From Halohasta litorea (lineage in GTDB: Archaea > Halobacteriota > Halobacteria > Halobacteriales > Haloferacaceae), in contig NZ_JANHDJ010000002.1 of assembly GCF_024494645.1 (NCBI RefSeq), positions 558,001-622,000 on the forward strand: DNA of 64,000 nt. The letters run 5' to 3'. Under the pieces are notes generated by a model. The model did not search any database and had not been told where the DNA came from. It was given only the letters and a program-made list of their open reading frames with translations. Positions 44,485 through 63,804 of the stretch are shown one piece after another; the stretch's first letter is position 1; each line of letters starts with the position of its first letter. Both the position numbers and the translations under genes were made by a program.

Positions 44485-44559
<75 letters not shown>

Positions 44560-44708: not shown

Positions 44709-44745
44709 CCAAGTGGACACGAACCCGTCGACGGAGGCGGGATTG

Positions 44746-45849
44746 ATGGACGAACTTGCCGAACTCCCCGTCGTTACCGAAACGTCGACAGAATATCTCA
44801 ACCCGCGCCAGCAACTCGACTATCGGAACGAGCGCGAAGAGTGTCTTGAATGGCTCCTTACGTTCGGAAAACGCCCTGACCAAGCAAGTGGGTATGCTCT
44901 CGGTACCCTGAAACCCGGTGCGTACCGAATGGACCGGTTCTACCGGTTCGTTTGGGAGCAGGAAGGCGGGTACACAGTGAACGTCACGCATGAGAACGCC
45001 GACGCGTGGATGAAACATCTTGCGCGAGAGAACGTGAGCACTACACACAAACGAAACTGCCAGAAAGCCGTTAAACGACTGTTCAAATGGCGGCACCATG
45101 AACACGGGCTCAGCGCGTGGGATCCTGACATCACGTTCGCAGCTGAGACGAGTACAAGTCCCCGGGACTACCTGACTCGTGACGAGCGCTCTGCTGTTCG
45201 TGAAGCGGCGCTCGAATACGGTTCCGTTCCCAAGTACAATAACCTCACACCGTCGGCACGAGACCGGTGGAAACAGTACCTCGCCCAGCGATTCGAGAAA
45301 CCAAAATCAGAGGTTGAACCAGCCGACTGGGACCGAGCAAACGGGTGGAAAGTCCCGTCGCTCGTCTGGGCGAGTCTTGATGCCGGGCTTCGGCCAATCG
45401 AAGTACAACGGTCAACAATCAGTTGGATTGACACCGACAACGCAGTTCTCCGGATCCCGAAAGAAGATAGCTCGAAAAATCGAGAACACTGGGTCATCGG
45501 TCTTCAATCCCGGACCGCAGAAGCACTCGATAATTGGCTTGCAGAGCGAGAAACATATGAAAAGTACGACGATACAGACGCGATCTGGCTTACTCGAAAC
45601 TCGAATCCGTACCACACAAAGTCGCTTCGCTACCTCCTGCAACAACTCTGTGACATTGCCGGTATCGACACAACCCACCGGCAAATGAGCTGGTACACGA
45701 TTCGACACTCTGTTGGGACGTATATGACGCGAGAGGAGGACTTGGCAGCGACGCAAGCACAACTCCGGCACAAGAGCGCCGAAACAACAATGAAGTACGA
45801 TCAAGCACCAGTCGAAGACCGGCAGGACGCATTAGATCGGATGGGGTGA
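44746..45849 (+). CDS. Tyrosine recombinase / integrase
   Basis: 367 residues. N-terminal SAM-like DNA-binding domain (about 30-125, e.g. MDRFYRFVWEQEGGYTVNV) and catalytic domain from about 150. Catalytic residues: Arg in SLDAGLRPIEVQ, Arg-His in SWYTIRHSVGTYM (H-x2-R replaced by Y-x2-R), His in AQLRHKSAE and nucleophile Tyr in TTMKYDQAP. I prefer ATG 44746 because GGAGG precedes it by 8-12 bp; a GTG at 44713 would add 11 residues. Adjacent to tRNA-Glu, so it probably catalysed insertion of the island there. Confidence 0.88.
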   Translation: MDELAELPVVTETSTEYLNPRQQLDYRNEREECLEWLLTFGKRPDQASGYALGTLKPGAYRMDRFYRFVWEQEGGYTVNVTHENADAWMKHLARENVSTTHKRNCQKAVKRLFKWRHHEHGLSAWDPDITFAAETSTSPRDYLTRDERSAVREAALEYGSVPKYNNLTPSARDRWKQYLAQRFEKPKSEVEPADWDRANGWKVPSLVWASLDAGLRPIEVQRSTISWIDTDNAVLRIPKEDSSKNREHWVIGLQSRTAEALDNWLAERETYEKYDDTDAIWLTRNSNPYHTKSLRYLLQQLCDIAGIDTTHRQMSWYTIRHSVGTYMTREEDLAATQAQLRHKSAETTMKYDQAPVEDRQDALDRMG

Positions 45850-45852
45850 ATA

Positions 45853-46974
45853 TTAAAGAATATTCGCGGCATTTCGCAGGATTTCATCAGTTGGGTGGAC
45901 GTATCGAGCGGCTGATGCCGTACTGTTTTGTCGTAATGTCTCAGCAACGATTTCGAGGTCGTGGAACTCTTCGTACGTGTATGTCCCGAGTGTATGCCTG
46001 AATGAGTACCAGGAAATCTTCCGACCTCCTATACTGATTTCTGCTTCCTCTATAAGTCCATCAAGGATGTCGTTGAGGGTTTTTGAATTATACGGGTTAG
46101 CTTCTCTATTCAACCACATGTAGTCTGAGTTGTCGTAATTTTTAATATTTTCTCGTTGTTCAATCCAGCGTTCAAGCGGGTCAATTGCTTTGTCTGGCAA
46201 ATGCTGCACCCATTTTGAATCATTTTTCACTGCTTGGTCTGCAGGAATTATGATTGTTTTTGAGTTAGCGTCGTACCAGTCGACCTTCATTCGTTCAATG
46301 AGTGCGGGTCGCCAGCCCGCTGCTCTTTCAGTTGCGATTATTGAGGGGATTTTCCAGTTCGTGTTTACCTGCTCCCAATCAGCAGGGCTGACATCGGTTT
46401 TCGGTTTGCTGAGTTCCTGGGCAAGATATATTCGCCAGCGATCTCGCTCTTCTGGAGTGAGGTTGTTGTACTTTGGGATGGACTTGTAGGTCAGTGACGC
46501 TTCCCAGAGTTCACTCACCTCTCTTTTCGTGAATGGGTCAGCGTGATTCGCGGATGCCTCTCCTTGAAAGGTGATATCTGGCTCCCAGTCGGAGTCTTTG
46601 AATTGAAACCAGTTGACTAGCGCGTCCGAAATCTTTCGCTTGCTATCTTCCCGGTATCGCCCATTATCTTGGCGACGGAAATCGTCGGTGGCGAGTGACT
46701 CGATTGCTTGATCTGCTTGCTCTGGTGTGATTTCCGTTGTCGCACCATCCTGCTCCCAAATCCATCGAATAGCTTGCAGCACTCGTGACACTCGCGTGCC
46801 AATCGATTTTTCTGCATATCCCTTTTGTTTTAATGGATCTTTACCTTCAGAGCGCAAGTACTGCTTGAATCGGTTAACCTTCGATTTGAAGATATCCTGT
46901 TGTCGCTGGCCCAGCTGTGGATACGATTCATTCCGATCATCCTCTACACGACTACTCATTGTCGACGACCCCAT
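45853..46974 (-). CDS. Second tyrosine recombinase, probably degenerate
   Basis: 373 residues from ATG 46974 (ATG 46959 also possible). Clear homologue of the neighbouring integrase: shared segment IPKYNNLTPEERDRWRIYLAQ versus VPKYNNLTPSARDRWKQYLAQ. Catalytic region: Arg in AAGWRPALIE, Arg-His in SWYSFRHTLGTY, but the expected His near the end is Gln (LRQNSTASA) ahead of Tyr in ARYVHPTDE. The local DNA is much more AT-rich than the chromosome. It is tail-to-tail with the first integrase (3-bp gap). It may be inactive, or have another role such as excision or resolution. Confidence 0.85.
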   Translation of the reverse strand: MGSSTMSSRVEDDRNESYPQLGQRQQDIFKSKVNRFKQYLRSEGKDPLKQKGYAEKSIGTRVSRVLQAIRWIWEQDGATTEITPEQADQAIESLATDDFRRQDNGRYREDSKRKISDALVNWFQFKDSDWEPDITFQGEASANHADPFTKREVSELWEASLTYKSIPKYNNLTPEERDRWRIYLAQELSKPKTDVSPADWEQVNTNWKIPSIIATERAAGWRPALIERMKVDWYDANSKTIIIPADQAVKNDSKWVQHLPDKAIDPLERWIEQRENIKNYDNSDYMWLNREANPYNSKTLNDILDGLIEEAEISIGGRKISWYSFRHTLGTYTYEEFHDLEIVAETLRQNSTASAARYVHPTDEILRNAANIL

Positions 46975-47253
46975 TGTGAGAACCAGTGTGGTTGTTTTCC
47001 TGGCAGTTTCGGTGGTTTGTGGTTTTGTCAAGTAATACGCGGATTTCACGCATTCTCTGACTGTTTTGTTTGGTTGTTTTATTCATCAAGCACAAAAGTA
47101 CAGAAGCCAGTTGTTTTAAAAACTTAGGTTAATTATTTTGATAATTGTGCGATTGGCCAGGAATAATTATATGTAATCAGACATCTCAGGGATACACTAC
47201 AGATACATTTCAAAATAAAACTGAAAAGTGGCAAACTATAAACTAGTTTCTAC

Positions 47254-48780: not shown

Positions 48781-48867
48781 CAACTAGCATTTAACTCGGT
48801 ATTTGCCATAGTCTTCGACCAATGCCAAAACGTGAACCGACCATACTGACTGTCGTTAAATAATTAG
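48781..48867 (+). repeat. Imperfect direct repeat A flanking the helicase-nuclease cassette
   Basis: About 87 bp, roughly 75% identical to 54549-54635 in the same orientation (shared words include ACTCGGT, TTTGCCA, GTCTTCGACC, CAAAACGT, CCGACCAT). A few bases later, AGGATGTCAC (48876-48885) equals the terminal bases of the IS605-type right end at 54781-54790, as if this copy were an internally deleted version. The helicase stop codon falls in that sequence. Confidence 0.6.
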
Positions 48868-48880
48868 ACATGAAAGGATG

Positions 48881-51781
48881 TCACTGATTCGCTGCTCTGG
48901 CGGTGTCACATAAGGCCTCTAACTTTAACGGAGACAATTCTACATGCTCATCGTTAGCAGTGTAGAAGATCGTAATCGAAACATCTCGATCAGGATATGT
49001 CTCTGATGCGACGTGGTAGTACACGCTGAGTTGCTTCCGGTATTCGGCTTCGGCGTGACGGCTGAGGTCTGTTTTGTAATCGATGATATGGATCTGATCG
49101 GGTGTAATGACGAGTAGATCTATGATGCCAACAAGTGTGATTGGTGGCTCCGTATTGAGAGGGAGAATCGCTGTGATTTCTGGTTTGAACTCGCCATCAA
49201 ACGAATCGAGTAGCTTAGCAACGTTTTGTTGATCGCCTCCAACCGGTGAGACATCGGCACCTTGCACGTAATCTTCGGCGAACTGGTGAACTTCGTCTCC
49301 AAACTCGGTTCCTCGTCCCTCCTCTATGTCGTCGTACACGCTATCGTCCATAATGGCGTGGACACTCATTCGCTGCGGCCCTGACTGTTCAGGCACTGTG
49401 ATCGAAAACGTATCTTTCTCCATATCCTCAATCGTTCTGGGTTCGACAGATGGTTCAACTTCTACAGGGTCAACTGAGAGTTCGGTAAAGAATGGACTCG
49501 GCGACCCGCCAGCAGTCAGAACCAAGTGTCGTTTCGCCCGCGTTACTGCAACGTAGAACAGACGACGTTCCTCATCGTATGTCGATGGAAGACACCCTGT
49601 GAGAAGATTGTTAGGCCAGTGCTTGTAGACATACGGGTTACCGTTTGCCTCGCTGTACACGGACCGTTGTCTGAGACCCAATGGTTCCTGATACTGGATC
49701 GTTCCAGCAGACGGTTTCCCGTAGCTCGGGAACGCTCGTCGATTGATGTTCGCACAGAATACAATCGGGTATTCCAATCCTTTCGCGCTATGAATTGTTT
49801 GCAGTGTAACTGAGTCCTCTCCTGGACTCGAATCAATCTCAATCGTCGACCCTGCTTTGAGATTCGCTTCAAGATATGTGATAGCTTCACTCCGCGTCGA
49901 CAGCGTGGTTTCGACCATCCCGGTAAGCTCGCCAAGCAATCCATTTGCATACGCACCATCATACCCATACTCGTCGAATACGATCCGAGCCAACCCACCA
50001 ATCGTCTCACTCTCGCGTAAACGATCCCGGAACGTAGCCATCGCATCAGGATACGCTTCATCATCGAGAATCTCCTCGGCGTGTTGCAGTGTGTACCCGG
50101 CTTCTTCCAACACGGTCGCCCACCCTCGCTGGTCATCCGACTCGCAAATCCGGAGCCACGCCAACAACAACTTCGCCTGATCCGTATCGAACAGTTCAAC
50201 TCCGCCCTCGTATGCCATCGGAATCCCGTACTCGCCTGCCTTTTCGAGGAGATCCCTCGCAAACGACCGATTCCGAGAAAAGACCGCTATATCACTGTAC
50301 GATGGTTTCCCCAGCCGTTCGGCCTCGGCAGCTTCTTTTTCACCCTGCGACATTTCGTCTGTCGATGCCGGTTCATCCCGAACCTCGACACTGTACTCCT
50401 CATTCCCAACGACGTGCTGTATTTGATCCAGAATGAGTTCGATCTCATCCTCATGCGTTACCGCCTTGATCTGACTGTTGTCGACGTAATTCGTCGCGTC
50501 CAACGACGTCATCTCGTCTTCGATAGCTTCGACATCAACAGAATCTCCGTTCGTCGCTGGCACTGTCAGCGTCTCTCTTGCTAACGAGAGAATTGAGGCC
50601 GTCGAACGGTAATTCTTTTCGAGCGGAATCGTTTCTATCTCTGTTTCGTCGACAGAGTACGGAACTCGTGTCTCACCACGATTCAACTCCGATTTATATC
50701 GGGTGATCCGCTCGCCGAACTCTTGGATGTTTTTGATGCTAGTGTACTGGAACCCGTAGATGCTCTGCTGCCAGTCACCAACAACACAAATGTTGTTCTC
50801 GGCTGCAAGGAGTAGTGTGAGTTTGAACTGCAACTCATTGGTATCCTGGAATTCGTCAACCATGACGTACTCGTGGCGAACCTGCTCACGAACCGTTGCG
50901 TCCTCACTCAGCATAACGAACGCCAACACGAGCATGAGCCCCTGGGTGAGATAGTTGCGTTGTAGCGCATACTCCAGATATTCAAAGTACACGTCGTGCA
51001 CAAATTCGAGTAACTCGTCGCGGTCTTCATCGAAAGCCTGCTCGACCGAGTCACGATGCAGTTGGGTGTCTCCGAGAACATCCTCTGCTTTCGGTGCATC
51101 GGGTACGTACTCCGAATCAGTCCAACTCACAGACGACCGTGCATTTGATTGTGTCGGACCGTAGGCCCCTTCGTTTGGTTGATTCTCTTGTTCGAAGATA
51201 CTGATAAACGCTTCTCGATCTCCTGTGAGCGTGGACCCTGTCTCCTGATACCACCCATTGCGTTCAGGAATTACTCCCTTCGAAGCCAATTCCGTTGTCA
51301 GTGATCGGAGAGTACCGGGGTCGTTGATTGCCGCAAAGAGATGCTCGTACTCTGGATGTCGATCTTCGAACTGGGAAATGAATGTGTTGAATAGCTTCGA
51401 CTCTCGGATACCATCCTCAATTAGATCGAGTGACTGTGGAATCTGATCGTGAATTCCAAGCTCACTCGGTGTTTCATGACCGTACCGTCGAAGCAACTGA
51501 TAACAGTACCCGTGGAACGTGCTGATTGGGGCATCCTGTAGCTGCACAGGATCGTACGGTGACTGTTGGGCGATTCTATCGGCCATTTCCGCAGCCGCAT
51601 TCCGAGTGAATGTGACCAAGAGAATGTCTTCAGGCTCGATTCCTGGTTGTTCGAGGATATTTGCATACCGACGCGTGATAGAGAATGTTTTCCCGGTCCC
51701 TGCACCAGCATTGACGCGATAGATCCCGTCGGTACTCTCAATCAGTCGTCGTTGTTCTGTGTTTGGTGAAATTCCAGTCAT
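48881..51781 (-). CDS. UvrD/Rep-type helicase with C-terminal PD-(D/E)XK nuclease (AddA-like)
   Basis: 966 residues. All superfamily-1 motifs are intact: I NAGAGTGKT (24-32), Ia LLVTFTRNAAAEM, II DEFQDT (309-314), III GDWQQSIYGF (335-344), IV LEKNYRST, V TLQTIHSAKGLE, VI YVAVTRAKRH. The C-terminal region (about 840-950) is a RecB-family nuclease: GIIDLLVI, IIDYKTD (D-x-K, ~900) and QLSVYYHVA. Together an ATP-dependent DNA helicase-nuclease as in AddA. The ATG 51781 overlaps the stop of the upstream partner (51778), so both are made together. Flanked by repeats; likely recombination/repair or defence against foreign DNA. Confidence 0.9.
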   Translation of the reverse strand: MTGISPNTEQRRLIESTDGIYRVNAGAGTGKTFSITRRYANILEQPGIEPEDILLVTFTRNAAAEMADRIAQQSPYDPVQLQDAPISTFHGYCYQLLRRYGHETPSELGIHDQIPQSLDLIEDGIRESKLFNTFISQFEDRHPEYEHLFAAINDPGTLRSLTTELASKGVIPERNGWYQETGSTLTGDREAFISIFEQENQPNEGAYGPTQSNARSSVSWTDSEYVPDAPKAEDVLGDTQLHRDSVEQAFDEDRDELLEFVHDVYFEYLEYALQRNYLTQGLMLVLAFVMLSEDATVREQVRHEYVMVDEFQDTNELQFKLTLLLAAENNICVVGDWQQSIYGFQYTSIKNIQEFGERITRYKSELNRGETRVPYSVDETEIETIPLEKNYRSTASILSLARETLTVPATNGDSVDVEAIEDEMTSLDATNYVDNSQIKAVTHEDEIELILDQIQHVVGNEEYSVEVRDEPASTDEMSQGEKEAAEAERLGKPSYSDIAVFSRNRSFARDLLEKAGEYGIPMAYEGGVELFDTDQAKLLLAWLRICESDDQRGWATVLEEAGYTLQHAEEILDDEAYPDAMATFRDRLRESETIGGLARIVFDEYGYDGAYANGLLGELTGMVETTLSTRSEAITYLEANLKAGSTIEIDSSPGEDSVTLQTIHSAKGLEYPIVFCANINRRAFPSYGKPSAGTIQYQEPLGLRQRSVYSEANGNPYVYKHWPNNLLTGCLPSTYDEERRLFYVAVTRAKRHLVLTAGGSPSPFFTELSVDPVEVEPSVEPRTIEDMEKDTFSITVPEQSGPQRMSVHAIMDDSVYDDIEEGRGTEFGDEVHQFAEDYVQGADVSPVGGDQQNVAKLLDSFDGEFKPEITAILPLNTEPPITLVGIIDLLVITPDQIHIIDYKTDLSRHAEAEYRKQLSVYYHVASETYPDRDVSITIFYTANDEHVELSPLKLEALCDTARAANQ

Positions 51782-54369
51782 CGGTCTGTAAGAATCAGGT
51801 CACGGTGGTCAACTCGATCCCAGTTTGGCCCATCCTCTCGGTAGGCAACCGGGAACCGGTCTTGACGGTACTCGTTCAGCGCAGTAAGTTGCTCATCGAC
51901 AAACGCTTCGAACGCATCGAGATCGGACTTCAGAACATATCCTGACGGCACGTCATCAAGATCATCAATAACCAGCCTACACCCCTCACGCACATACTTG
52001 TGCGGCCCAACGTGATCCTGAGCGTACTCAATAAAGGCTTCAGTCACTCTGTGACGTTGATCAGGGTCTTCACCGGCTCGCGGAAGTTCGTGAGTTTCGA
52101 AAAACTCCCTGTATGCCTCATACCCGAGTTTGTACAGTGTTTTGCACCGATCATTCGAATCAGCAAAGTCAGTTACTGTTTCGAACGTCTCCCGACGTGC
52201 GACGAACTCACCGAACCGTGCTGGAACATACGTAATGGTCGTCACGAGATCCGCTGGCTCTGGAGGATTCCCTCTGATGGTTTCATCAGTGTCGTGGAGC
52301 AGGTGCACAAAGTGCATATTTAGCTGCTCGTCTGGACGCTCTTCACGATGTTTAGCAAGGTAGACGAGCGCTTGGAAATTAGGGTACTCGTCGACGGGAT
52401 CAATCGCCGCAGAGTCCAGGATATCTGCAGCACTGTCCTTACTCCCCGATTTGTAATCGACCAACGTGGTAGTATCCTGGATTAGATCGATGTACCCATG
52501 CATTCCGATGGAGGGAGATTCGAACCATCGTTCGGTGAGTGGTGAGTCACAATCAACGCCCAGTGTATTAGCGAGCTCATTTTCACGGTCCAAGAAATCG
52601 TACGTCTCATACTCACCCCCGGAAGCAGGGTTCGCATCCAGATACGCTGTGATGGCATCAAGACCGAGTTCCAAATGCGTTCGCTGCACAGCTCGCTTCG
52701 AATCACCCAGATACGGATCTAACTGAGTACACATCGCATCCAGAACCCTCTCACGCTGATCTTCAAGCACAGACGGATCTGCGACATAGATCTCAGCGGC
52801 TTCGTGAAGCACCGTCCCTCGCGCCATCGGAAGCACCTCGGGAGAATCGACTAACCGGTCAAAATACGCATCCCGAGGCGAGTTCACGAGCGACTTCAAC
52901 CGAGACTGACTCACTGTTTCAACATCTTCGTGCGGTGTTGTGGACGCATCCGGCTCAGCAAATGGTGCTGTTTGCGGTGTGCTCGGTACACCGTTGTGAC
53001 GCGTGTGCGGAAGATCATCGAACGTCTCGAAGGATTCATCGAGGAGTCGACGGAGATACACGCACGGTGTAACGTCACTGCCTGCCTGAGTCTCCTGGAC
53101 AAAATAGTACCGTTGCTCCCCGTTCTGAAGCAATCGTTCGAACCGTGTGAGATCGTGTTCGAGATAATCGGTCTGATCTATCCACGGGTACTCCGGTGGT
53201 GTCTGCGCCCAGTCTGGGCCGAGACCAATGTAGAACACAACCGGCCGGTCAACATACGCTGTCGACGTTGCTCCTGCCAACAGAACCCCATCCGACGCAT
53301 CCGTCTCGGTCGGAACAGAGAACGCATTCAGATAGTACTGGAAGCGCGTCACTCGTTCTTCGGTCACCGAGTCATCGATCATCCCGAGTTCATCGAATTC
53401 ACGCCGGAGATCGGTGAGCTTCGTCTCAGCGATTGACTCATACACAGTGACAACATCACGGAACGTCCCGTTCTCAACAGCCTCCCGAAACTCCACGTAG
53501 GAACTAAGTTGACCACTGGAAAGTGAGTCAACACGCTGTTGTTCGATACCACGAGGGATTTCAATCCCTGCCGTAGTGAGTACGGGCCGAATGTCCGAGA
53601 CACGTTGGTCTGCCCCGGCAAACGTTGTTTCCAGCAACCGGAGGAACGCTCTCACATCCTCATCATCTTCGAATCCTGGACCACCACGGTACGGTATCTC
53701 TCGTGCTTCAAGCGCCGATTCAATCAAAGCACTGTACAAACTATCTTCGACAAGAACGATCCCGAATTGGTCAGCCGTTTCCGGATCGATTTGATCAACG
53801 ATAGTCGACACAATTGATGTCGCAGACGAGAATATCCTCAGTTCGGGAAACGAAACGTGACTACTACTCAATGATGAATGCGTCTCATACTCTGTTTGTG
53901 GTGGGAGAATACTCCGATCTAGCTCAGAGAGGTGATCTTCGTCAATAACTGCAATATCTTGGTCTGCAGAGAGACTCATGCGTTCGGTGGCCAAGTAACT
54001 ACTTTGTAACTCTCCTAACATCGATACAACGGACCGTATTGCAGGCGTGTCAAACTCAGGGTACGCAAGGATCCCGTCTCGGTCACCGGTCGCGGTCCAA
54101 CAGTCAATACAGAGTTCGAGTGCCCTAACAGCCTGTTTCCACGACAAATCGGTCTCTGCAATAATCTCAAAAAACAGCGATCTAATATCATCTGGGAACA
54201 TTTCCTGAACAGCATGGCTGCGAGGCGTAGCAGATAATCGACCGATTCGAGGTGTCTTCACTCGATTATCGAGCGCGAGTGCAAGCGGTGCTTCGTCAGT
54301 AAGAACAGTATCATATTCAGCAACCACTGAATAGAGTTGGTCGATTGACCGGGCTTCCCGTAATGGCAC
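51778..54369 (-). CDS. AddB-like protein with PD-(D/E)XK nuclease domain
   Basis: 863 residues, GTG start at 54369. The N-terminal ~450 residues look like a helicase fold without a Walker A motif (as in AddB/RexB, the structural arm). The C-terminal part holds the nuclease: SRLKSLVNSPRDAYFDRLV (about 500), GTVLHEAAEIY (His), MHGYIDLIQDTTTLVDYKSGSK (G-x-I-D and D-Y-K, about 620-645) and YPNFQALVYLAKH (Q). No Cys cluster for the AddB 4Fe-4S is evident. First gene of the two-gene unit with the UvrD/AddA-like partner. Moderate GC, unlike the AT-rich genes before it. Confidence 0.82.
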   Translation of the reverse strand: MPLREARSIDQLYSVVAEYDTVLTDEAPLALALDNRVKTPRIGRLSATPRSHAVQEMFPDDIRSLFFEIIAETDLSWKQAVRALELCIDCWTATGDRDGILAYPEFDTPAIRSVVSMLGELQSSYLATERMSLSADQDIAVIDEDHLSELDRSILPPQTEYETHSSLSSSHVSFPELRIFSSATSIVSTIVDQIDPETADQFGIVLVEDSLYSALIESALEAREIPYRGGPGFEDDEDVRAFLRLLETTFAGADQRVSDIRPVLTTAGIEIPRGIEQQRVDSLSSGQLSSYVEFREAVENGTFRDVVTVYESIAETKLTDLRREFDELGMIDDSVTEERVTRFQYYLNAFSVPTETDASDGVLLAGATSTAYVDRPVVFYIGLGPDWAQTPPEYPWIDQTDYLEHDLTRFERLLQNGEQRYYFVQETQAGSDVTPCVYLRRLLDESFETFDDLPHTRHNGVPSTPQTAPFAEPDASTTPHEDVETVSQSRLKSLVNSPRDAYFDRLVDSPEVLPMARGTVLHEAAEIYVADPSVLEDQRERVLDAMCTQLDPYLGDSKRAVQRTHLELGLDAITAYLDANPASGGEYETYDFLDRENELANTLGVDCDSPLTERWFESPSIGMHGYIDLIQDTTTLVDYKSGSKDSAADILDSAAIDPVDEYPNFQALVYLAKHREERPDEQLNMHFVHLLHDTDETIRGNPPEPADLVTTITYVPARFGEFVARRETFETVTDFADSNDRCKTLYKLGYEAYREFFETHELPRAGEDPDQRHRVTEAFIEYAQDHVGPHKYVREGCRLVIDDLDDVPSGYVLKSDLDAFEAFVDEQLTALNEYRQDRFPVAYREDGPNWDRVDHRDLILTDR

Positions 54370-54548
54370 ACTCGAACAAGCAAACCCACCTACTTGTACT
54401 TACTCCGAAAGCAACAGGTCAATATCACCGTATCCACACGGGGGGTGTCCGCAATTATAGAGATTCAAGGAAAATACTGGTGGCTTCAGACACCAGATGA
54501 ATCCCACAATTCAAGTCACAAACCACCGTATAGAAGGTTGTGCATGGA

Positions 54549-54790
54549 CAATTGGCAGTTGACTCGGTGTTTGCCACGGTCTTCGACCGAGAACAAAACG
54601 TAAGCCGACCATGCCGACAGTCACAAAACAATCAGGTAACTCGAAGCCCTCTGAGGGGTACGAGTAACGGCTTCGTGGCAGAGCCACTGGTTGACTGTCC
54701 AGTAAACCTTAGACTCTCAACCTTCAGGATTGACCTGCTCGGCTAACGCCGGGTAAGAGGCCCGCGCCTTTAGGCGCGGGAGGATGTCAC
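54549..54790 (+). mobile_element. IS200/IS605-type right-end remnant without tnpB (contains repeat B)
   Basis: Repeat B (54549-54635) continues into a structured stretch ending in hairpin CCCGCGCC-TTTA-GGCGCGGG (54761-54780) and AGGATGTCAC (54781-54790). A perfect-stem hairpin followed by GAGGATGTCA is the typical right end of haloarchaeal IS605/IS1341 elements. No tnpA or tnpB lies beside it. The remaining part of the 535-bp gap (54370-54548) contains the helicase-nuclease promoter region and nothing else I can identify. Confidence 0.6.
54642..54790 (+). ncRNA. Omega-RNA-like transcript candidate at the IS605-type end
   Basis: Paired elements in order: CGAAGCC (54642-54648) with GGCTTCG (54669-54675), TGGC-AGA-GCCA (54676-54686) and the terminal 8-bp hairpin (54761-54780) followed by GAGGATGTCA. 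In TnpB systems the RNA scaffold occupies exactly this right end and the guide is the adjacent ~20 bases, here from about 54791. Transcription is not shown and tnpB is absent locally. Confidence 0.4.
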
Positions 54791-54842
54791 CCAGCTTCAC
54801 AACAACTTTGAATCGACCTGTGGAGACTGCGTTCCCGTTTGA

Positions 54843-54900
54843 TGTGCAAGCTCTGTGCAAACGCCGAAATTATTATCTTTCTGTGTGCAGAACTTGCACA
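54843..54900 (+). promoter_or_regulatory. Operator pair of the RHH-PIN toxin-antitoxin module
   Basis: TGTGCAAGCTCTGTGCA (54843-54859) and, inverted, TGTGCAGAACTTGCACA (54884-54900) flank the TATA-like TTATTATC. The second ends 4 bp before the antitoxin ATG (54905). The pair fits autorepression by a ribbon-helix-helix antitoxin. Confidence 0.55.
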
Positions 54901-54904
54901 TAGA

Positions 54905-55273
54905 ATGAGTGCAAGTGACGATCCCAGACGAGTCCATTTCCAGTCCCCGGAATACCTCGTCGAGCGGCTCGATGCGATTGCTGACCTCTTCGACAAGGAT
55001 CGAACGGACGTCCTTGTTGAGGCTATGCGAGAGTATATAGAGGATACCGCCGACAGCGAGACGTTCCAAGAATTGGTCGCTGCGAAGTATTACGATGACC
55101 AACTGGATTTCGAAACAGTAAAACAGCTCGTCGGCGCTGAGACCGCCCAACGACTACGGCTTCTCAAATCTGACTTAGCAGACGAACCGCTCGATATTGC
55201 TGCGCCGGATGACGTCGACATCTATGATGCGGAAGCAACGACAGTCGTGACTGATGATGTCGACGACCGATGA
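54905..55273 (+). CDS. Ribbon-helix-helix antitoxin
   Basis: 122 residues from ATG 54905. N-terminal RHH: RRVHFQSPEYLVERLDAIADLFDKDRTDVLVEAMREYI (about residues 8-46), the beta strand being RVHFQS. The C-terminal half is acidic and would wrap the toxin. Stop overlaps the start of the PIN gene (ATGA at 55270-55273), so the pair is coupled. The promoter has two inverted operator copies. Confidence 0.85.
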   Translation: MSASDDPRRVHFQSPEYLVERLDAIADLFDKDRTDVLVEAMREYIEDTADSETFQELVAAKYYDDQLDFETVKQLVGAETAQRLRLLKSDLADEPLDIAAPDDVDIYDAEATTVVTDDVDDR

Positions 55274-55839
55274 GTGGGTCACGCCTACGAACGGTTGTCG
55301 CCGATACGAGCGCACTGGTAAGTCTCGCCGTTCCGCGTGCTGACGAAGCCTACGATACGACGACCGCACCGGATCCGCTTCAGTATCTGCTTACCGCCTG
55401 TGAGGTTGCTGTCCCACCCGAAGTCGTCTCGGAGCTCCAGGACATCACACAGTACCAGGATATCCACAGTGCTGCTGCTACCAACGTTCTCGCTGCCCAG
55501 GACTACTTCACAGTCGAAGATCCGTATGCACGGTCGGATACCGCCGAAGCGAGACCAACATTCGGACTTGACGATGGCGAAACGGATGGAATCGTTCTTG
55601 CGAATGCACTCGGTGTCGACGGGTTTCTGACAGACGAATTCGGTGGGACAAATTTTGCACTCATCCATGCCGTCCTCCGGGGACCACGGATTGTGCCAAC
55701 ACCACGGTTGATCTGTGATCACGCACGGAACGGACATATGACTCACTCGGAGGCACAATCACTCATTACGAATATCGGTCTGTATCGGAGCTGGGACAAC
55801 AGTCCCTACGTCAGTCAGGTGCTGTCTCTATTGGACTGA
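55270..55839 (+). CDS. PIN-domain nuclease toxin
   Basis: 189 residues. PIN fold acidic residues: D12 in VVADTSALVSLA, E/D in LDDGETDGIVLA (about 103-110) and D in GFLTDEFGG (about 120). Mg-dependent RNase of VapC type. Longer than typical VapC (~130), with a C-terminal helical extension. Translationally coupled to the RHH antitoxin; this RHH+PIN pair is a recurrent haloarchaeal type. Confidence 0.85.
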   Translation: MSGSRLRTVVADTSALVSLAVPRADEAYDTTTAPDPLQYLLTACEVAVPPEVVSELQDITQYQDIHSAAATNVLAAQDYFTVEDPYARSDTAEARPTFGLDDGETDGIVLANALGVDGFLTDEFGGTNFALIHAVLRGPRIVPTPRLICDHARNGHMTHSEAQSLITNIGLYRSWDNSPYVSQVLSLLD

Positions 55840-62614: not shown

Positions 62615-62712
62615 TATGACTGATTAAAAACCACATACACATTCGGAAGGTTGGGATATTTTCTCAGGGCAATCGTTTAAAAGTGAGTAGAAAACTCAAG
62701 GCATGCCGACAG

Positions 62713-63804
62713 ATGACCGAAAGCACAACCGACCCGAATATGACCAGAGTAGAACACGTTGTTCTGAAACCGAACGCAGACGATATTAGCGTTGCTGCGA
62801 CGGCCGAAGTACTACGCGCTGCAGGGCTTGATCAAGAACAATGTGACCCAAATAAATTCGACAGACTCGTTGAACAATGGAACACATCTGATCGCTGGAG
62901 TGTCACCCGACACTCAACCACAATCCACGGCGATGTACGACAACCACACATAAACGGTATTCAGGAACACGATTATGCAGGAACTGTGTCTACTCGGCTC
63001 AAAACTCGAAGCTGGCACAACAAAATGATGGACACCGTAGAGTGCCCAGAATGTGGCTCTGAACACACACGCCTCTCACTTTACGGGCATCAAGACTCAC
63101 GGAGCTGCCGCGCACAACAAAATAAGAACGAAGTCAAAGAACGCGGACTACAGCAACTAACTACCCAATCAAAGTACCTCCGCGAACTAATTGAGGAACA
63201 CAGCGACGTTGGAATCAAAAAATTTGCAACAAAGTACGTGCCTGGCAGTCGAAACAAAAAGTCAGTACTTCGAAATTTGAGATACGCAACGCCAAATGGG
63301 ATCAAAAAAGCGCGACAGCAGTATCTCCCGGCACCTAACAAAAAGGGAACGACAGCCCAGATCGTGTGGCGGAACACAGATCACTGCATCGTGAAGACTG
63401 ATGACGCAATGCACGTCATTGACATCGAACATCCAGATCGGATCTACCGTCGACAATCATTGTACGTGAACCCAAGCATTGGCACCCTCATCAGTTACAA
63501 CCGTGATGGGTGGCGGGTTGGCGAAGCAATCACAAAATACGCAGGCAAAATCACAGAACAAATCTGGCACTCAGATCATGCTGTCATCGTGATTGAAACA
63601 GATGCTGGTACTGAACACACAATTAAAATCGATCACCCGATTGAGATTATCGGTCGTGATTCAAAATATCCAGATGAATTCGACTCCCATACGGACGCTA
63701 TCGATCACGGAGCGAATATCAGCATAGAAGCTAAGCCAACATCAGCCGGATTAATACCTGGAAAAATTGTTGCGGCCGATAACGGCGTTATCGTTGAACT
63801 GTAA
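62713..63804 (+). CDS. Hypothetical protein with zinc-ribbon centre
   Basis: 363 residues from ATG 62713 (other ATG at 62740). Central C-x2-C pair and distal His/Cys: VECPECGSEHTRLSLYGHQDSRSC (about residues 103-126). The N-terminal part is acidic/helical; the rest has repeated short beta units (VWRNTDHCIVKTDDAMHVIDIEHPDRIYRRQ and the similar IWHSDHAVIVIETDAGTEHTIKIDHPIEI), suggesting an internally duplicated C-terminal domain. No known family. Lower GC than the core chromosome, so part of the island. It sits just before the putative Mrr gene. Confidence 0.6.
   Translation: MTESTTDPNMTRVEHVVLKPNADDISVAATAEVLRAAGLDQEQCDPNKFDRLVEQWNTSDRWSVTRHSTTIHGDVRQPHINGIQEHDYAGTVSTRLKTRSWHNKMMDTVECPECGSEHTRLSLYGHQDSRSCRAQQNKNEVKERGLQQLTTQSKYLRELIEEHSDVGIKKFATKYVPGSRNKKSVLRNLRYATPNGIKKARQQYLPAPNKKGTTAQIVWRNTDHCIVKTDDAMHVIDIEHPDRIYRRQSLYVNPSIGTLISYNRDGWRVGEAITKYAGKITEQIWHSDHAVIVIETDAGTEHTIKIDHPIEIIGRDSKYPDEFDSHTDAIDHGANISIEAKPTSAGLIPGKIVAADNGVIVEL

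Follow-up and report, generated by a model that had tools for sequence, protein, structure and literature searches.

The archaeal DNA considered here, a 64,000-nucleotide stretch of Halohasta litorea (the window), carries two adjoining genes whose products resemble the subunits of bacterial AddAB helicase-nucleases. The two genes, addB-like and addA-like, form a self-contained accessory unit that passes between genera and families and is maintained by selection. To judge from its sequence and surroundings, this cassette (addBA) is probably a virus- or plasmid-defence module not yet characterised, because the pair moves as a compact unit and often adjoins known antiviral systems. A sequence-only reading of the window had singled out the same pair as a mobile-looking cassette and as its best candidate for a system not yet described. 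The second claim is plausible; public records list the genes as a PD-(D/E)XK nuclease family protein and an ATP-dependent DNA helicase.

The addA-like gene (48881..51781, minus strand) encodes a protein of 966 aa in which a superfamily 1 (SF1) helicase of the UvrD type is followed by a C-terminal RecB-family PD-(D/E)XK nuclease. Pfam matches are to UvrD N (E 4.7e-51), UvrD_C and PDDEXK_1 (E 7e-9). The addB-like gene (51778..54369, minus strand) encodes 863 aa, with a conserved N-terminal half that has no Walker A motif and a RecB-family nuclease in the C-terminal part (PDDEXK_1, E 8e-11). Its GTG start is supported because alignments to relatives begin at residue 1. The addB-like gene comes first and the two overlap by 4 bp. 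Counts of motifs, gene order, Walker A and iron-sulfur (Fe-S) cysteines were taken over 99 complete addB-addA loci. The helicase motifs of the addA-like protein (AGxGTGKT, DEFQD and others) and its nuclease residues H832, D888, D901, K903, Q917 and Y921 are kept in at least 97% of the homologues, and the same holds for the active site of the addB-like nuclease (H522, D628, D638, K640, Q666, Y670). Walker A occurs in none of the addB-like proteins, and the cysteine spacing of bacterial AddB (C..C.{4,8}C) in 0/99. The order addB then addA is found in all 99 loci; the genes overlap in 98 and are separated by 36 bp in one. The domains, the overlap and the AddAB-like architecture bear out the earlier description of a helicase-nuclease coupled to a second nuclease.

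An SF1 UvrD/Rep helicase joined to a C-terminal RecB-family nuclease is the architecture of AddA, and the addA-like protein has it by both Pfam and motifs. The partner is likewise as in AddAB, since the adjacent upstream gene encodes a C-terminal RecB-family nuclease and is coupled in the B-to-A order in every complete locus. Against the AddA equivalog of NCBIfam (TIGR02785) the addA-like protein scores 152 bits, far below the cut-off of 708. For the addB-like protein NCBIfam gave no AddB match (E limit 0.1); in PDB, with an E limit of 10, neither the single sequence nor a 41-sequence profile found a match. An AlphaFold model of it built from 4 sequences had a mean predicted local distance difference test score of 35, too poor to search with for the inactive helicase-like fold that AddB has in its N-terminal half. 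The pair is called AddAB-like, not AddAB; it agrees with AddAB in architecture and gene order, and the label AddB-like refers to architecture only.

Two known enzymes are close in plan. Bacterial AddAB of the Firmicutes type (PDB 3u4q, 3u44) also has an SF1A helicase and RecB nuclease subunit, with a second subunit that carries its own C-terminal RecB nuclease, both encoded in one operon. It differs in its AddB, since the addB-like protein is shorter, has neither Walker A nor CxxC(4-8)C, and shows no detectable AddB sequence match. Mycobacterial AdnAB (PDB 6ppj, 6ppr), also a heterodimer, is a helicase-nuclease that has two nuclease domains. The addA-like protein matches its UvrD/REP chain at E about 1e-15. 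AdnA retains a helicase-like ATPase domain, whereas the addB-like protein has no Walker A.

Presence and absence were scored in 293 Halobacteriales genomes of 87 genera. The addB-like gene is present in 111 of these genomes and 54 of the genera, with two or more copies in some genomes; outside Halobacteriales, only 2 genomes matched in a phylum-wide sample. Both genes are under purifying selection, with dN/dS (nonsynonymous to synonymous substitution rates) of 0.07-0.22 in close pairs. A joint tree of the two genes shows 39 host-family changes, the minimum being 10. Vertical inheritance is also present, because the clustering of host-family labels on the tree still exceeds that in shuffles. 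The extent of what is transferred can be seen at loci in different families. For example, L111 (family f6) and L113 (f7) are 97.2% identical over 5942 bp, from 95 bp before addB to 417 bp after addA, and lie in unrelated flanks. Little or nothing is common beyond addBA in L050/L051, or between L088 and any of L092, L052, L095, L091, L096 and L112. Near-identical copies in different families often have in common only addB-addA and about 0.1-0.4 kb of flank, whereas other pairs share longer flanks. Neither terminal inverted repeats nor target duplications could be seen at the junctions compared, and homologous exchange inside islands and plasmids would be enough to explain how the cassette moves. 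The cassette is thus not part of a constant core, nor tied to one locus; as the sequence-only reading had it, the pair is accessory and mobile.

The surroundings of the cassette vary between loci, and no neighbour cluster that could represent a third obligate gene occurs in more than 10 of the 99. A Fic-like gene was considered as a component and rejected, as it is present in 109/293 genomes and mostly away from addBA. Its product is about 285 aa with a weak Pfam Fic match. It stands beside addBA in two separate branches (L100:13953-14828 and L039:7034-7876, both on the minus strand), and many copies of the gene are broken.

The cassette is linked to bacteriophage exclusion (BREX) systems. With haloarchaeal BrxC (model PDLC02474) as marker, 41 of the 293 genomes are positive, and addB is present as well in 24 of them (odds ratio 2.8, p 0.003). 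In 15 of these 24 genomes both genes are on the same contig, no more than 40 kb apart; the gas-vesicle protein GvpA, taken as an accessory control, gave 0/37, and is a limited control because islands gather accessory genes of many kinds. In L105, L111, L127 and L082 addA is followed by brxA and brxC on the same strand. Plasmids supply further examples. In Halococcus dombrowskii the order is pglX-pglZ-helicase-addB-addA, all in one direction, and in Halorhabdus tiamatea a BREX-5 set adjoins addBA. Genes for SNF2, DUF499 and DUF1156 proteins lie near the cassette in Haloglomus halophilum, SNF2 and DUF1156 genes in Natronorubrum bangense, a DNA cytosine methyltransferase and a helicase in Haloferax larsenii, and CRISPR genes in Halosegnis marinus. 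The genes for the large and small subunits of Exonuclease VII are found directly upstream of addBA on the H. marinus plasmid (L217:7134-8780, minus strand). Exonuclease VII is unusual in archaea.

BREX type 5 and the DUF499 systems related to BREX are frequent physical neighbours of addBA, yet the cassette is mostly found without BREX, 87 of the 111 addB genomes having no BrxC match. The cassette is a linked neighbour of BREX, not a BREX component.

Besides the limits of the GvpA control, several observations weigh against a role in defence. The copy in the window has no recognised defence system beside it, so that the defence association proposed by the sequence-only reading is seen across the family and not at this locus. 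The Halohasta genome has no BrxC of the PDLC02474 type, and a PglZ match lies about 64 kb downstream on the same contig. Most of the 99 loci do not adjoin BREX. A survey with PADLOC and Pfam of 120 neighbours against 120 control genes gave a modest enrichment of defence families; it is not used as main evidence because the enrichment, besides being modest, is inflated by overlapping models. No PADLOC model covers the addB-like protein, and PADLOC matches to the addA-like protein represent generic UvrD similarity. Some plasmid copies have no annotated defence gene nearby. As to the PglZ-domain gene itself (G000:C23:676118-676618), a similar type is present in about 14 genomes that have no PDLC02474 BrxC.

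The known biology of AddAB offers another explanation. In bacteria the enzyme serves end resection and recombination, and the haloarchaeal pair might be a repair accessory that supplements Mre11-Rad50 and HerA-NurA in resecting ends and that spreads because it aids repair or homologous recombination, with no direct part in defence. The loci L054, L056 and L125 of genus g2 stand in partly conserved surroundings, as a settled repair gene would. Such a role is rather unlikely given that about 62% of the genomes manage without the cassette, that transfer between families is frequent, that a single genome can hold several divergent copies, and that linkage to BREX is strong. The benefit of the cassette is most likely defence rather than constant housekeeping repair. 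The two roles are combined in bacteria, where RecBCD and AddAB are housekeeping enzymes that also form an anti-phage barrier and feed CRISPR adaptation.

Where the copies reside bears on a further alternative, in which the pair maintains the plasmid or integrated element that carries it, for example by helping megaplasmids to replicate or recombine, or by eliminating rival plasmids. In a plasmid collection 33 haloarchaeal plasmids carry the addB-like gene, mostly annotated as a PD-(D/E)XK nuclease family protein. Several copies, including plasmid ones, are near orc1/cdc6, ParA or integrase genes, a setting that also fits plasmid upkeep, and a ParA-family ATPase gene is a recurrent neighbour (8 loci in 8 genera). 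Many copies, however, lie on contigs longer than 1 Mb, and the replication genes are outside the block that is shared between loci. A search of viral contigs and phage records with a single-sequence query also found no relative. An element-maintenance function is improbable, and the last result offers nothing for the anti-defence role that the sequence-only reading had entertained.

With moderate confidence, then, the best explanation of the cassette is an AddAB-like helicase-nuclease that attacks DNA at free ends, degrades it and acts in the service of defence islands. The addA-like and addB-like proteins are predicted to form a heterodimer in the style of AddAB or AdnAB that would load onto double-stranded DNA at a free end. 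Unwinding, 3' to 5' along its own strand, would be the task of the AddA-like subunit, and the two nuclease domains of RecB type would cleave the strands once separated. The host might benefit through destruction of linear or broken invading DNA. Alternatively, the enzyme may finish off DNA that partners such as BREX-5 have stalled or cut.

Other systems share parts of this design. Gabija GajB and other UvrD helicases recognised by PADLOC are UvrD-family proteins used in defence, and the PADLOC matches span the helicase only. GajB has no fused nuclease and its partner is an OLD-family nuclease. Fusions of UvrD with Cas4 (pfam12705) have been described in bacteria and mesophilic archaea as a predicted component of several defence systems (PMC5704561). 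The likeness of these fusions to the addA-like protein is one of domain make-up, a UvrD helicase joined to a PDDEXK_1 nuclease; the addA-like protein differs in having a constant addB-like partner and other neighbours. A survey of BREX describes auxiliary PD-(D/E)XK nuclease effectors in BREX loci, and its main text uses none of the terms UvrD, RecB and AddA (PMC12839542). The open literature yielded no account of an AddAB-like cassette in haloarchaea, subscription papers being outside the search. A broader proposal can be put forward tentatively, with doubt outweighing confidence: the cassette could be a portable end-processing module common to BREX-5, BREX-related and other antiviral systems, centred on haloarchaea and containing a previously undescribed AddB-like lineage without ATP-binding or Fe-S motifs. 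In this proposal it would degrade DNA that those systems have stalled or cut.

The cassette is flanked by direct repeats of 87 bp, and the sequence-only reading described it as bordered by them. The repeats are real: positions 48781-48867 and 54549-54635 are 75.9% identical without gaps, with an alignment score of 69, whereas 200 shuffles reached at most 26. In principle they could bound a transposable unit that carries addBA with it, as their shared orientation on either side of the genes and a score well above shuffles would suggest. Their structure points elsewhere. The second copy lies inside a non-coding mini-element of about 337 bp (54455..54790, plus strand), which derives from a TnpB element and has left-end similarity as well as the right end GCGCGGGAGGATGTCAC. 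The mini-element is assigned to the IS200/IS605 group (IS1341 type) because both of its ends match L073/L074, elements of about 1430 bp in which the same two ends enclose a TnpB gene. The first repeat copy belongs to a truncated mini-element (48781..48884, plus strand), where it is followed by the right-end sequence AGGATGTCAC. Read on the minus strand, AGGATGTCAC gives addA its stop codon and, just before it, the third base of the last sense codon, and the addA tails of relatives differ at the place where the window gene ends in the mini-element. This copy of the mini-element is later than addA, because it overlaps the 3' end of that gene.

Other genomes of the family have solitary mini-elements, 80-88% identical, at unrelated sites, and none is present beside the closest addBA relatives (L039-L042, 72-74% identical). 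Repeat-flanked copies of the cassette, which the sequence-only reading had proposed to look for in other genomes, are thus absent at these relatives. Since the closest relatives have no mini-element and one copy supplies the addA stop, the sequences place the arrival of the mini-elements after that of the cassette, and they are unlikely to be its movers. The two repeats also differ by 24%, unlike those of a recent composite. Repeats internal to an element that occurs alone, and that do not bound the cassette in L039-L042, were rejected as borders of a composite transposon, and a repeat-bounded unit moving addBA is very improbable indeed. The cassette is literally bordered by the repeats, yet the description misleads because the repeat belongs to another mobile element; the idea that the repeats delimit or mobilise addBA is not supported.

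The placing of the cassette in a tRNA-linked island is confirmed. The proximal anchor is a tRNA-Glu (TTC) gene (44485..44559, plus strand), and G+C content falls from 64% (1-44000) to 51% in the island. Two different tyrosine integrases, both matching PF00589, stand end to end beside the tRNA (44713..45849, plus strand; 45853..47049, minus strand), which suggests nested or successive integrations. The tRNA 3'-end repeat that would mark the far att site was not found in the window or in the next 16 kb. In sister genome G001 this tRNA and its integrase region recur and there is no addB-like gene anywhere, while G002 has an addB-like copy, 39% identical, on a contig other than that of its tRNA-Glu match.

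Both kinds of neighbour named in the earlier reading can be located. The methylase is a Dam-type adenine methyltransferase (PF05869; 47254..47823, minus strand). The supposed toxin-antitoxin genes are a two-gene pair outside the cassette (54905..55839, plus strand), encoding a 122 aa protein, probably of the ribbon-helix-helix type, and one of 189 aa. Over 54840-55813, upstream of addB, the DNA is about 76-78% identical to pairs on six haloarchaeal plasmids. The pair is present as described, but its identity as a widespread toxin-antitoxin candidate is only plausible, because it has no significant Pfam match and the plasmid relatives are mostly annotated as a ribbon-helix-helix protein and a hypothetical protein. 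Farther on, 62683-63804 encodes a protein with weak matches to Zn-ribbon and BRCT domains (E about 0.002), unusual in an archaeal island if real.

The cassette represents an archaeal AddAB-type enzyme that behaves like defence cargo, being optional, passed from family to family as two genes, and clustered with BREX. The family is found in more than one third of the Halobacteriales genomes sampled, yet it is annotated only generically. If the proposed role is correct, addBA would fill a gap in haloarchaeal BREX-5, that of an effector or a clean-up step, and its two genes would be ready for laboratory testing in Haloferax.

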